Part shown: piece by piece, positions 1,540 to 64,000 of the stretch | Layout: each line of letters starts with the position of its first letter | How positions within the stretch are numbered: the stretch's first letter is position 1 | Source: Prevotella melaninogenica | GTDB taxonomy: Bacteria > Bacteroidota > Bacteroidia > Bacteroidales > Bacteroidaceae | Direction: 5' to 3' | Assembly (NCBI RefSeq): GCF_003609775.1 | Contig: NZ_AP018050.1 | Location: forward strand, 1,280,923-1,344,922 | Length of the DNA: 64,000 bases | Notes under the pieces: model-generated | The model's database searches: none | Told to the model about the DNA's origin: nothing | The model's input: only the letters and a program-made list of their open reading frames with translations | Made by a program: the position numbers and the translations under genes

Positions 1540-1762
1540 GCACACATTATAAGCAACAAAAGAAAACATAGACGACAATCGATTGTTTATTAGAGTTTTC
1601 TCTCAGCTTATTAAAGCTTATTCCATCTTAAAATCTCACATTCATAGCAACGAAATATTTTTACATAGCTTTTAGATATTTCTACTTAAAAACAAGAAAT
1701 AAAAGCATTTTTCAACCTCTTTGTAACTTTCTTCTTATCAAGAAGTTATAAAGTTGTGCAAG

Positions 1763-1872
1763 AAAAGGTGCTTACTTAGCCTTCAAAAGGGCGTTAGTTA
1801 GAGTCTTAAAGAGCATCTTTAACAAGTCAATTAAGGCTTAATTGAAATGCAATTCATCGTTATTAAAAATAC
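1763..1872 (+). repeat. Family-1 22-nt modular palindrome array, copy A
   Basis: Five consecutive 22-nt units start at 1763, 1785, 1807, 1829 and 1851. Each is a 16-nt quasi-palindrome (unit 2 is AAAAGGGCGTTAGTTA, unit 4 is AATTAAGGCTTAATTG) followed by a 6-nt linker. The conserved GTTATAAAG box starts exactly 18 nt before unit 1. Five more copies occur in this window. Confidence 0.9.
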
Positions 1873-1901
1873 TAACGAGAATTTATTTTGACAAAAACAA
1901 C

Positions 1902-6498: not shown

Positions 6499-6918
6499 TT
6501 TCTTACTTTTGGATAATCTTAAGTTCTACTTTATATCTATATACATTAAACTTTCAAGATTTCTTTTCATGAAAAAAAGAAATTATTTTCATGAAGAAAA
6601 ATAATTATTTACGTGAAGATAAATATTTATTTTCATGAAAATAAATTAGCATACGACCTGAATAAGTTCAAAATATGTTGTTTTTTTAGATTCAATAGAC
6701 AGCAGAATTAAAAACAATTAAGCACTACTTACATCCGTAATCATGTGCTATTATTATTGTATGAATGTTATAATAATAGATTGAATTTCAAAGGAATAAT
6801 TGAACATTGCTTACTAACTACTTAAACATAGAAGCAAGATAAACAGGAGCTTGTATAAAAACAAAAGAAGAAACAGAGGATATAACTATCCCCTATTTCT
6901 TCGTTTATGTATATACTA
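6499..6918. other. Intergenic region with a CATG-centred palindrome array
   Basis: No gene was seen between the GH25 start and the pfp stop. The only clear structure is the family-2 array at 6557-6647. The remainder is A+T-rich sequence without a strong hairpin. Confidence 0.65.
6557..6647. repeat. Family-2 22-nt palindrome array (CATG/CGTG centres), copy 1
   Basis: Four palindromic units of the type TTATTTTCATGAAAATAA have their CATG or CGTG cores at 6568, 6590, 6612 and 6634, exactly 22 nt apart. A second such array lies at 37033-37126. Confidence 0.85.
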
Positions 6919-14814: not shown

Positions 14815-15036
14815 AACTTATAACGATAAAGTGAAATTAAAAAGGGGGGCGACTCTGTTATTTAACGCATCAAATAATCTAAACGCAACTAAGAAAAGGA
14901 CTACTAAAAATAAACATTGACTGGTAAAATATTACAACAAAAAGAAGATAAAAGAGCACAGCAAATCATAGAAATAGAGGTGTTTTTAGCGCAATTACAA
15001 CCAATTAGTTTTCAACCAGTTACACAACCACTCCGT

Positions 15037-15146
15037 AAAAGGTGCTTAATTAGACTTCAAAAGGGCGTTAGTAAGCCCTTAAAAGGGCATCTCTTACAAG
15101 TCTATTAAGCCTTAATTAGAAGCCAAAAGAGCATCTTTTATTTTTC
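15037..15146 (+). repeat. Family-1 22-nt modular palindrome array, copy B
   Basis: Five units start at 15037, 15059, 15081, 15103 and 15125. Unit 5, AAAAGAGCATCTTTTA, is a near-perfect palindrome. The GTTACACAA box begins 18 nt before unit 1, as in the other copies. This is the only copy between two genes in tandem orientation; copy F's second neighbour lies outside the window. Confidence 0.9.
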
Positions 15147-15363
15147 ACGATGTGAATTTTCATTACAAAATAGAAGTATGAATGATAAGAACGGAGCAAT
15201 TAGCAACCTATCGATTTATCAATACCTCAAAAAAAACTTATCATCGTCAGAATAGCATGTAACAGATACATCTCGCCTATTAAACACCATCTTTTTCCCA
15301 CGGAGCTATGCAATTAGGTACAAATAGAAGCGATTAAACGTAAAACCTTAACAATATTTAAAG

Positions 15364-24507: not shown

Positions 24508-24571
24508 AATCTAAGGGAAGGAATAAACATCTCTTACCCTTACCAAATTTGTAATATAAAAGTCATCTTTA

Positions 24572-24681
24572 AAGAATAAACAAATGCTTAGTTGCATTCC
24601 AATTAAGCCTTAATTGAGCTTCAAAAGATGCTTAATTAAAGCCTAAAAGGTGCTTAGTTAGACTCAAACTAAGCACCTTTT
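24572..24681 (-). repeat. Family-1 22-nt modular palindrome array, copy C
   Basis: Read on the minus strand, five 22-nt units start at 24681, 24659, 24637, 24615 and 24593, with a GTTATAGAA box 18 nt before unit 1. Units 1 and 2 are inverted copies of each other, giving a 15-bp perfect stem (AAAAGGTGCTTAGTT) with a 7-nt loop. Confidence 0.9.
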
Positions 24682-24896
24682 CTTTTACAGTTCTATAACA
24701 CATTGATACCTTGAAAGTAACAAAAGAAACAAAATTGGCTCTTGAAGAAGGAAAAACTTATAGAAAAGACAAATATTTTGTAACAACATTTCACAACTCT
24801 ATCTAAAAACTTCCAAACTCCATTATCATACAAAACAGACGATTAAAAGTAAAAAGCACTATCCATAAAAATGTATATAAAGAAGGTGTATATAAC

Positions 24897-33409: not shown

Positions 33410-33497
33410 TTTAATGCTCCGCACACATGGTGCGAAGGCTTAACACATATAGTGCGAAGGCTTAACACCAATCGTGTTGACTGCTAAATACATCGCA
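33410..33497. repeat. Family-3 22-nt palindrome array, copy 2
   Basis: Units start at 33410, 33432, 33454 and 33476. Units 2 and 3 share GCGAAGGCTTAACAC exactly 22 nt apart. GCACACATGGTGC and AACACCAATCGTGTT are the palindromic parts. Confidence 0.8.
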
Positions 33498-36913: not shown

Positions 36914-37226
36914 AACAATTAAGAACAAATAACCTAATTAAGCAGGGATAAAAAAGCGATTAAAAGGCTACATATATCAAGGAAAGAACGTACCTTTGCA
37001 CTATAAATGCAGGTTCTTAATGAAGTCTCTTTAGAATTATTTACGTGTAAATAAGAATTTCTTTTCATGAAAATAAAGATTTCTACTAACGTAAATAAAT
37101 ATTTATTTTCACGTAAATAATTTGCGAAAACAAATCTACATATATTAAAGAAAGAGAATATTAAAACCGTATTTAAGATTGAATTTCAGAGTATTAACAT
37201 CATTCTTATATTATAATAAATAGTAA
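36909..37226. other. Divergent intergenic region with the second CATG/CGTG array
   Basis: The 318 bp between the cyclophilin and EamA genes hold the cyclophilin -7 box at one edge and the family-2 array at 37033-37126. No clear -7 box was found for the EamA gene. Confidence 0.6.
37033..37126. repeat. Family-2 22-nt palindrome array, copy 2
   Basis: Four A+T-rich palindromes have ACGT or CATG cores. Their central C lies at 37044, 37066, 37090 and 37112, so spacings are 22, 24 and 22 nt. TTATTTACGTGTAAATAA and CTTTTCATGAAAATAAAG are the clearest units. Confidence 0.8.
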
Positions 37227-38138: not shown

Positions 38139-38451
38139 CCATCTAAGCAGGTACTCAGGATGAAGTAGTAGCAGGCATAAAAGAGTACTCAAACCCATTA
38201 GAATGTAAAATAAAATCACATCACTGGAAACATACTAAGGCTTAATTGCATCTGAATTAAGGCTTAATTGACGTGCAAAAGGGCGTTAGTTCGAATGTAA
38301 CTAACGCCCTTTTGCAATGCAATTAAGCACCTCTTGCTTTACTATTTTATAACTACTTGTTTATCTGAAGGTTACAAACGCAATCAAAATAGCAGTTTTT
38401 TGAAGGAAAACGTGGTATAAAAGCCATTGAGATTGTAATAATATTTCAAAT
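38139..38451. other. Convergent intergenic region after the EamA gene
   Basis: No gene was seen. The main content is family-1 array copy D (38226-38335), which includes an 18-bp perfect hairpin that may serve as the terminator here. Confidence 0.7.
38226..38335 (-). repeat. Family-1 22-nt modular palindrome array, copy D
   Basis: Read on the minus strand, five units start at 38335, 38313, 38291, 38269 and 38247, with GTTATAAAA 18 nt before unit 1. Units 2 and 3 are exact inverted copies that, with flanking bases, give an 18-bp stem (38274-38291 with 38299-38316) and a 7-nt loop. Confidence 0.92.
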
Positions 38452-42399: not shown

Positions 42400-42487
42400 A
42401 TTAGTACTCCGCACCAATGGTGCTTACCAACAACACAATGCGTGCTGGGCAACAACACATAAGTTAAACACGCAAAGTAAGTGTTAA
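42400..42487. repeat. Family-3 22-nt palindrome array, copy 3
   Basis: Units start at 42400, 42422, 42444 and 42466. CTCCGCACCAATGGTGC is shared with copies 1 and 2; later units are degenerate (GCTTACCAACAACACAATG, GCTGGGCAACAACACA) but keep the 22-nt register. Confidence 0.7.
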
Positions 42488-48125: not shown

Positions 48126-48209
48126 TTTTTTTCTCTACTTTTCATATTTCATAAAAACATAGACTTCAAACCTAAGAGAAAGTCAATTTGTCAACAATTT
48201 TCCTCTCTT

Positions 48210-48319
48210 CGATTTTTATTAAGGCTTAATTACACTCGAATTAACGCTCAATTGACTTCTAAAAGATGCCCTTTTGAGGTCTTACTAACGCCCTTTTGAA
48301 GCCTAACTAAGCACCTTTA
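48210..48319 (-). repeat. Family-1 22-nt modular palindrome array, copy E
   Basis: Read on the minus strand, five units start at 48319, 48297, 48275, 48253 and 48231, with GTTACAAAG 18 nt before unit 1. Unit 2 is AAAAGGGCGTTAGTAA and unit 3 AAAAGGGCATCTTTTA. Confidence 0.9.
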
Positions 48320-48439
48320 ACAAACCAACTTTGTAACTATCTAATAACAAAAGAGTTACAAAGGAACGTAAAACTGTGTTTTTAAGCACCATTAAGAGGA
48401 TTAAAGGACAAAAAATGTTAAGTATTTTCATAACTGTAA

Positions 48440-63521: not shown

Positions 63522-63822
63522 CATAATTCTAAGGAGATAAGCCCCTTTCTCGGTAACGTTTTTCTACTTAAATATACCCCAAAAGAAACTTTTATAATAC
63601 TTTTATCGACTTACAAGCTTTAATACTTAACTAACCCCTCTGAAAGTGACAGAAGACAAATAAGATAAATAAAATAATAACAGCCTCATTGGAGTACATA
63701 AGAGCACAAAGAAATTTTATTACAAAAACAAGGAGAAAAAGAAACATAATAACAGCCTAAATCAGTATTTTCAACTACTATTGTAACCAAAAGACTATCA
63801 AACAATTACAAGACCATAAAGT

Positions 63823-63932
63823 AAAAGATGCTTAATTGGACTTCAAAAGGGCGTTAGTTAGACCTCAAAAGAGCATCTTTTACAAGTCAATTGGGCGTCT
63901 TTTCGAAGCCTAAAAGGCACATATTACTTTTC
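63823..63932 (+). repeat. Family-1 22-nt modular palindrome array, copy F
   Basis: Five units start at 63823, 63845, 63867, 63889 and 63911. Units 2 and 3 are AAAAGGGCGTTAGTTA and AAAAGAGCATCTTTTA. The ATTACAAGA box starts 18 nt before unit 1. Confidence 0.9.
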
Positions 63933-64000
63933 AATAGTTAGAAAATTTATTACATTTAGTGAAACACATAGTTCTCATAAAAGCAAATATGATAATCGAG

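Follow-up and report, generated by a model that had tools for sequence, protein, structure and literature searches.

A dispersed intergenic repeat of five phased 22-nt dyads in Prevotella, a candidate platform for a DNA-binding protein

Described repeats and the element in the window

The closest described repeat is PINSR, a 188-bp intergenic sequence that was reported in 177 and 184 copies in two P. intermedia strains, on both chromosomes and also downstream of tnaA, without terminal inverted repeats and with unknown function (PMC4755523). That 2015 description presents PINSR as specific for a species group, since by PCR it was limited to P. intermedia, P. nigrescens, P. falsenii and P. disiens, with P. 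denticola and P. veroralis outside (PMC4755523). Two repeats of other genera are similar. BrickBuilt of Porphyromonas gingivalis also consists of a leader, tandem short repeats and a tail and is always intergenic, but it has a 23-nt unit, 1 to 22.8 units, IS5-type terminal inverted repeats and 19 copies (PMC4596501). BOX of Streptococcus pneumoniae is likewise a modular intergenic repeat with more than 100 copies, but has a variable number of modules, terminal inverted repeats, target duplications and a predicted RNA structure (PMC3049150). In contrast to BrickBuilt MITEs, the element in the window (the whole 64,000-nt stretch of Prevotella melaninogenica DNA analysed here) has 22-nt units, mostly five of them, and direct ends. 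These direct ends also set it apart from BOX and other MITEs, as does the lack of a clear target-site duplication (best excess 10 versus 4 of 93 copies, at 3 nt, with boundary offsets and lengths scanned), and it does not show the base-pair covariation of RNA hairpin repeats. Repeated sites about two helical turns apart are also found in iteron origins, parS-type sites and the end arrays of Tn7 and Mu; the element differs from these in its at least 150 chromosomal copies, its dyad units and the absence of a known cognate protein.

Like PINSR, the window element is dispersed, intergenic and without coding function (none of 143 copies overlaps a predicted gene), and it lacks terminal inverted repeats, the window species having direct ones. 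Copy numbers are also alike, with about 180 PINSR copies over two chromosomes and at least 150 matches here to a profile (R1) from 36 copies, of which 60 on contig C1 and 90 on contig C2 are among the matches listed. The window species differs from PINSR in length, about 245 bp, and in its half-sites. In another genome on two contigs, G117, which we infer to be P. intermedia or a close relative, a six-species profile (R2) gave at least 150 matches at 149 distinct places. The span between the terminal motifs, measurable at 27 of 30 loci, was 187 nt in 25 cases, 188 nt in one and 221 nt in one, and unit starts were 22 nt apart, except once 44, where one unit was missed by the pattern. The tnaA gene was present in two of eight genomes tested, G117 and G094. 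In G117 an element (L364:1107-1260) follows the 3' end of tnaA at a distance of about 240 nt, in agreement with the published tnaA location; in G094 no R2 match was detected near tnaA. Because of the 187-nt span and the copy downstream of tnaA, the element class is very probably PINSR. The restriction to one species group does not hold for this class, as R2 at E <= 1e-4 matched 111 of 299 genus genomes (61 of 131 good ones), the window genome and some source genomes of the profile being counted, and as R1 gave at least 79 matches in P. denticola and at least 21 in P. veroralis. The available part of the PINSR description contains no 22-nt units, leader or terminal dyads (PMC4755523), which was the one paper that our literature searches returned for PINSR; no work listed in these searches describes 22-nt phased arrays in Prevotella.

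Architecture and fixed spacing

A sequence-only reading had described six arrays of five 22-nt units in the window as one element rather than random satellites. Coordinates, strands and unit division were confirmed for all six (Table 1), and the array is the core of a larger element of about 245 bp; the leader, the terminal repeats, the mutual exclusion of copies and the link to PINSR were not covered by that reading. The window is the end of contig C2 in a genome of 3,090,326 bases and three contigs. Copy F (window 63823-64000) lies at this contig end, and the repeat may have broken the assembly there. Further copies are abundant, contrary to the outcome that the sequence-only reading had named as its refutation: a unit-2 14-mer with at most one mismatch gave 174 genome matches, compared with 2 for the reversed pattern, and all listed R1 matches had E <= 1.2e-25 (30 of the 36 profile copies had been picked by an exact unit-2 match on contig C1). 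A scan of genome contigs with a 38-nt pattern gave no match. In a viral contig scan, two IMG/VR contigs (L241, L242) contained a 17-nt unit-2 pattern.

Table 1. Copies of the element in the window, in window coordinates
Copy	Extent	Strand	Left terminal repeat	Leader dyad	Units	Right terminal repeat	Remarks
A	1650..1897	+	~1651-1668	~1720-1752	1763-1872	~1877-1896	terminal bounds approximate
B	14924..15171	+	14925-14942		15037-15146	15153-15170	
C	24547..24794	-	24776-24793		24572-24681		unit 2 half-site order reversed; right bound approximate
D	38201..38449	-	38431-38448		38226-38335		unit 3 half-site order reversed; right bound approximate
E	48185..48433	-			48210-48319		downstream of RNase G-like gene; terminal bounds approximate
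F	63709..63957	+	63710-63727		63823-63932		near end of contig C2

In the element, a 48-nt gap separates the left terminal repeat (near TTTGAAAWATNATTACA) from the leader; another 12 nt lead to the five units, and 4 nt after these comes the right terminal repeat (near TNTGAAAWTWKTTTACAAA), the terminal repeats being about 228 bp apart. The leader, upstream of the 110-nt array, is a dyad of the form TTTGTAAC-N17-GTTATAAA and contains a conserved AATCAANNNNTTA about 26 to 15 nt before unit 1. This motif resembles the IHF consensus and is a possible bend site. The consensus units 1 to 5 are AAAAGGTGCTTAATT, AAAAGGGCGTTAGTA, AAAAGGGCATCTTTT, AATTGGGCGTCTTTT and AAAAGAGCATGTATT, each followed by 7 nt, and are composed of two half-site types, AAAAG.. 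and AAYTAA... Unit 1 is heterotypic (H1-H2') in 110 of 143 copies and unit 2 in 122. Conserved unit order, as claimed before, was found in most copies; it breaks down in unit 2 of copy C and unit 3 of copy D, and unit 5 is variable. The terminal motif is dyad-like (TNTGA-N7-TTACA). Of 142 copies, 119 have a match to a regular expression for this motif on the left side and 90 have one on the right, and an information profile made independently of this expression shows both terminal blocks to be conserved likewise. The two terminal motifs are direct repeats in the window species; the left motif of G117 reads reversed (TGTAA-N7-TCACA), which fits a dyad.

Unit extraction was performed with an ungapped matrix on 131 stretches plus the window and yielded 143 copies, a set of best-scoring matches, 142 of which have enough flank for spacing work. 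The register, said in the sequence-only reading never to slip, was maintained throughout: among these 142 copies, 512 inter-unit distances were exactly 22 nt, 35 differed from this by 22 nt (cross-matches of similar units or true unit changes), 21 were unmeasurable and no other value occurred. Five units are present in the large majority of copies. The leader keeps its distance to unit 1 in 138 of 142 copies; the left terminal repeat keeps its distance to the leader in 109, deviates by one in 31 and by 25 in a single copy, and was left unmeasured in one, while 45% of the spacer positions between the left repeat and the leader differ from the consensus.

Copies were split by a unit-5 pattern into type I (61 copies) and type II (81 copies). 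In type II the 42-nt spacer has a median nearest-neighbour identity of 0.62 (10-90%: 0.52-0.83), near the 0.595 obtained for column-permuted spacers of all 142 copies. The left repeat nevertheless ends at -97 in 47 type II copies, at -98 in 12 and at -96 in 7, so that every one of the 66 type II copies with a recognisable left repeat has it at the modal position or 1 nt away (not found in 15). We consider fixed spacing despite diverged spacers to be strong evidence, although it is not free of ascertainment, since the copies are good matches and since, for scores within 4 bits of each other, the spacing script gave preference to the position in register. Some type II copies have close relatives whereas the median one has none, so not every copy is old. 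Type I spacers are more alike (median nearest-neighbour identity 0.83), and type I copies look like a more recent burst, that is, younger. These copies, and also L031-L033, share sequence beyond both terminal repeats and may sit in a longer mobile unit.

Placement, mutual exclusion and occurrence in relatives

With genes called by our own script, 52 of the 140 classifiable copies lie between convergent genes, 67 between tandem and 21 between divergent ones, with 3 more at edges. The convergent placement pointed out earlier thus holds for four of the six window copies but is not a genome-wide rule. In tandem settings the element points with the genes in 35 cases and against them in 32. The median distance of the array is 253 nt from gene ends and 409 nt from gene starts. 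Runs of orientation along the chromosome are as expected, so a strand bias was rejected.

Copies exclude each other at short range. Around 126 copies, each at the centre of a stretch of 3-4 kb, a total of 440,299 flanking bases contained no second copy; this set leaves out five stretches in which neighbours had been merged, holding 11 copies with 2,165 bp between the closest two. The 126 stretches include 70 other intergenic gaps of at least 100 bp, none of them occupied, where about 12 extra copies would be expected because 5 of 28 such gaps in the window are occupied (the sixth copy is at the contig end). Gaps below 2 kb were also missing among the listed matches, as compared with uniform placement that ignores gene structure: none versus 3.9 expected on C1 (P 0.02) and 11.1 on C2 (P 0 of 2000) in the window genome, none versus 13.2 on C1 and 2.5 on C2 (P 0.07) in G117, and none versus 3.8 on C1 (P 0.02) and 1.2 on C2 (P 0.28) for 84 of 133 matches in P. 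multiformis. The window copies are 9.5-15.6 kb apart, with a CV of 0.19 (P 0.004, six drawn from 28 gaps). Under the same uniform null, the gap CV is as for uniform placement on C1 of the window genome (P 0.26) and of G117 (P 0.46) and lower on C2 of the window genome (P 0.0015). Short-range exclusion is therefore clear, whereas regular spacing beyond about 2-4 kb is not general. A DnaA domain match (G000:C2:652839-654200) lies about 0.7 kb from a copy. Since copies are only somewhat denser there and oriC of Bacteroidetes is often far from dnaA, we make no claim on dnaA proximity.

Judged by the ortholog of window:1957-3570:-, P. denticola, P. jejuni, P. histicola, P. vespertina, P. veroralis and P. 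multiformis are the closest among named species. At E <= 0.001, and mostly as lower bounds, R1 matches numbered at least 146 in P. jejuni, at least 151 in P. histicola, at least 15 in P. vespertina, at least 133 in P. multiformis and at least 14 in P. brunnea, in addition to the P. denticola and P. veroralis matches given above; since one element can appear among the weak matches on both strands, the numbers for P. denticola, P. bivia and P. brunnea are approximate. R1 matched 15 of 36 genus genomes, counting that of the window, but no genome among 24 others of the order. R2 matched 6 of 197 other genomes of the order, one of the same family with 7 matches and five with one weak match each.

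The arrays of five relatives (20 stretches per species) can be read as 22-nt units whose half-sites differ from species to species. P. histicola has AAAAGRNGYCCTTTT types, P. multiformis AATCAGGC.., P. denticola NNNNAGGCCTTNNNN types and P. bivia AAAASRT-N-AYSTTTT; this reading was made by eye after matrix placement, with some P. denticola and P. bivia rows poorly placed. G117 likewise combines its own half-sites with the 22-nt register. Thus, the letters of the half-sites are species-specific and the register is mostly common, though 21- and 23-nt arrays occur. Exceptions are a 23-nt-period array (TTAACTTAAAGTACGAGTGTAGG) downstream of a ClpB-like gene in P. vespertina (L225) and dyads near TTATCTAAGTCTGATAA about 21 nt apart (by eye) on the 3' side of an RNase G-like gene in P. 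veroralis (L235). A sequence-independent period scan of 80 loci (580 kb), all sharing one gene neighbourhood, gave 48 intergenic-like matches, 19 at 22 nt, 6 at 44 nt, 7 at 21 nt, 5 at 14 nt and others, and not all of the 22-nt matches are dyads.

Positions are partly shared between species. For the site of copy A, eleven loci were searched. R2 matched on the 3' side of the gene in P. histicola, P. bivia, P. brunnea and the MAG locus L113, weakly so in P. jejuni (E 0.0035), and gave no match in the remaining six; in P. micans (L048, GTATAATNANTTATAC) a 22-nt array at this site escapes R2. The site of copy E had R2 matches in 4 of 10 loci (P. jejuni, P. denticola, P. multiformis, P. brunnea), and in these four species the array is found on that side of the RNase G-like gene where copy E lies. 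At the place of copy C only P. jejuni had a match (E 1.2e-5; 1 of 10 loci, some without full 3' flank). Copy B has a counterpart in P. histicola (L245) with both flanks matching and an array 81% identical. Unlike most of the 20 P. histicola arrays, the one at this locus is still of the window type, so simple concerted evolution is not supported. The flank of a window-genome copy was matched by 35 of 100 relative stretches, 21 well and 14 via short weak matches, and at 12 of the 21 better-matched flanks the array is inverted relative to the gene.

Competing explanations

We favour, with a probability of about one half, the explanation that the copies are rigid DNA-level platforms of fixed geometry for a putative dyad-binding protein. 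On each copy the protein would recognise a dyad of about 15 bp, present five times on one helical face (22 bp corresponding to two turns), and the leader dyad and the two terminal dyad-like motifs at fixed distances would allow the bound proteins to form one rigid complex. Its role might lie at chromosome scale, in organisation or in the insulation of transcription units from one another. Initially the element probably spread as a mobile sequence of the non-autonomous kind, and it may later have been kept for its binding sites, and both readings would then be true in turn. A platform is supported by the register (547 of 547 measurable distances in 142 copies are multiples of 22), by the left repeat position kept in type II despite near-chance spacers, by the species-specific half-sites in one register in five relatives and G117, and by the half-site logic of units 1 and 2. 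The intergenic placement with random orientation, the exclusion between copies in flanking bases and among listed matches, and the 99 of 100 listed exact unit-2 matches that fall within listed R1 matches also argue for it.

The main competitor of a platform is a parasitic non-autonomous MITE- or BOX-like element whose array binds a transposase or recombinase in trans, whose geometry is needed only to move and whose mutual exclusion would be target immunity; we give this a substantial minority of the probability. It would account for the at least 150 copies, the more similar type I spacers with their shared outer flanks, a P. denticola array (L322) that is 94% identical to a copy of the window genome, and the inverted orientation at 12 of 21 better-matched genes. 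The shared outer flanks and the inverted orientation also count against a platform, as do the close relatives of some type II spacers (90th percentile 0.83) and the fact that spacing beyond about 2-4 kb is not regular everywhere. However, the missing clear target-site duplication and the direct rather than inverted end repeats of the window species are not as expected of such an element, few copies among the exact unit-2 matches are truncated, and many type II copies keep their geometry though their spacers diverged to near chance. Array-less terminal motifs above 9 bits numbered 25, versus 40 in the reversed-sequence control, with one strong case. As they do not exceed the control, excision by site-specific recombination at the terminal repeats was rejected as well.

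Compared with these two explanations, function at the RNA level is very improbable. The units would act as RNA hairpins, either terminators or 3'-end stabilisers, and indeed they are dyads, unit 3 pairs well, and terminator-like hairpins were found between gene end and element in 46 of 166 cases (antisense control 30, shuffles 0), although these lie outside the element. Units 1 and 2, however, join non-complementary half-sites, and their inner pairs are only 0-20% Watson-Crick, which disfavours hairpins. Across 143 copies the pairing excess over independent columns is at most 0.03 in every unit pair but one (unit 5 pair 4-12, 0.68 versus 0.53 expected), so the covariation between arms that had been named as a check is confined to this pair. 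The structure that RNAalifold gives for 36 copies joins unit 1 to unit 3, with two-sided changes in 0 of 10 pairs, terminator-like signals within the element occur in 16 and 17 of 143 copies on the two strands, orientation to genes is random, and Rfam gave no match within the window. Hairpin RNA was rejected on half-site logic and missing covariation, and the preference of the sequence-only reading for a protein on one DNA face is upheld, with binding itself as the putative step. Intrinsic curvature, with A- and T-tracts phased at 11 bp and bending as the function, is improbable, though less so than hairpins. In 7 of 8 sets the 11-bp tract power exceeds that of tract-preserving shuffles by a factor of 3-10, and the bend predicted with the wedge angles used is about twofold. 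Yet P. denticola keeps the 22-bp register without tract phasing (0.19 versus 0.31, some rows being poorly placed) and with little extra predicted bend (51 versus 41 degrees), and L113 (AACTGAGGCTCAGTT) and L101 have 22-nt dyads without A-tracts. Curvature thus fails as a conserved feature in P. denticola, and bending may help but is not what is conserved. Chance satellites or a local duplication have negligible weight: no point in their favour was found, and the genome scan refutes them with at least 150 copies of fixed order and spacing and with related arrays in many species.

A repeat that was called species-group-specific in 2015 has a strict architecture that is common to much of the genus and is kept while its letters change. 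It is tempting to speculate that the platforms are mutually spaced and geometrically fixed throughout the genus and that a putative protein whose specificity changes fast occupies five phased dyads at each of 150-200 intergenic sites, giving the chromosome its organisation in a parS- or MatP-like manner, the half-site code changing and the 22-bp geometry remaining constant; we regard this extension as possible but doubtful. Potentially, selection acts on the geometry of individual copies. The pattern points to an uncharacterised DNA-binding system in Bacteroidota, in a major human oral and gut genus, and makes it testable, since a DNA bait, spacing mutants and species-swapped half-sites are now defined.

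Other arrays with a 22-nt period were also observed. Within the window, one type (6564-6646 and 37047-37120) has dyads near TTATTTNCRTGNAAATAA and is unlike the studied element in sequence, and a third type (33422-33476 and 42415-42459) starts near YCTCCGCACNNATGGTGC and has CAC-N5-GTG-like dyads. In Xylanibacter brevis, three different 22-nt arrays follow each other in one intergenic region (L103:5126-5358).
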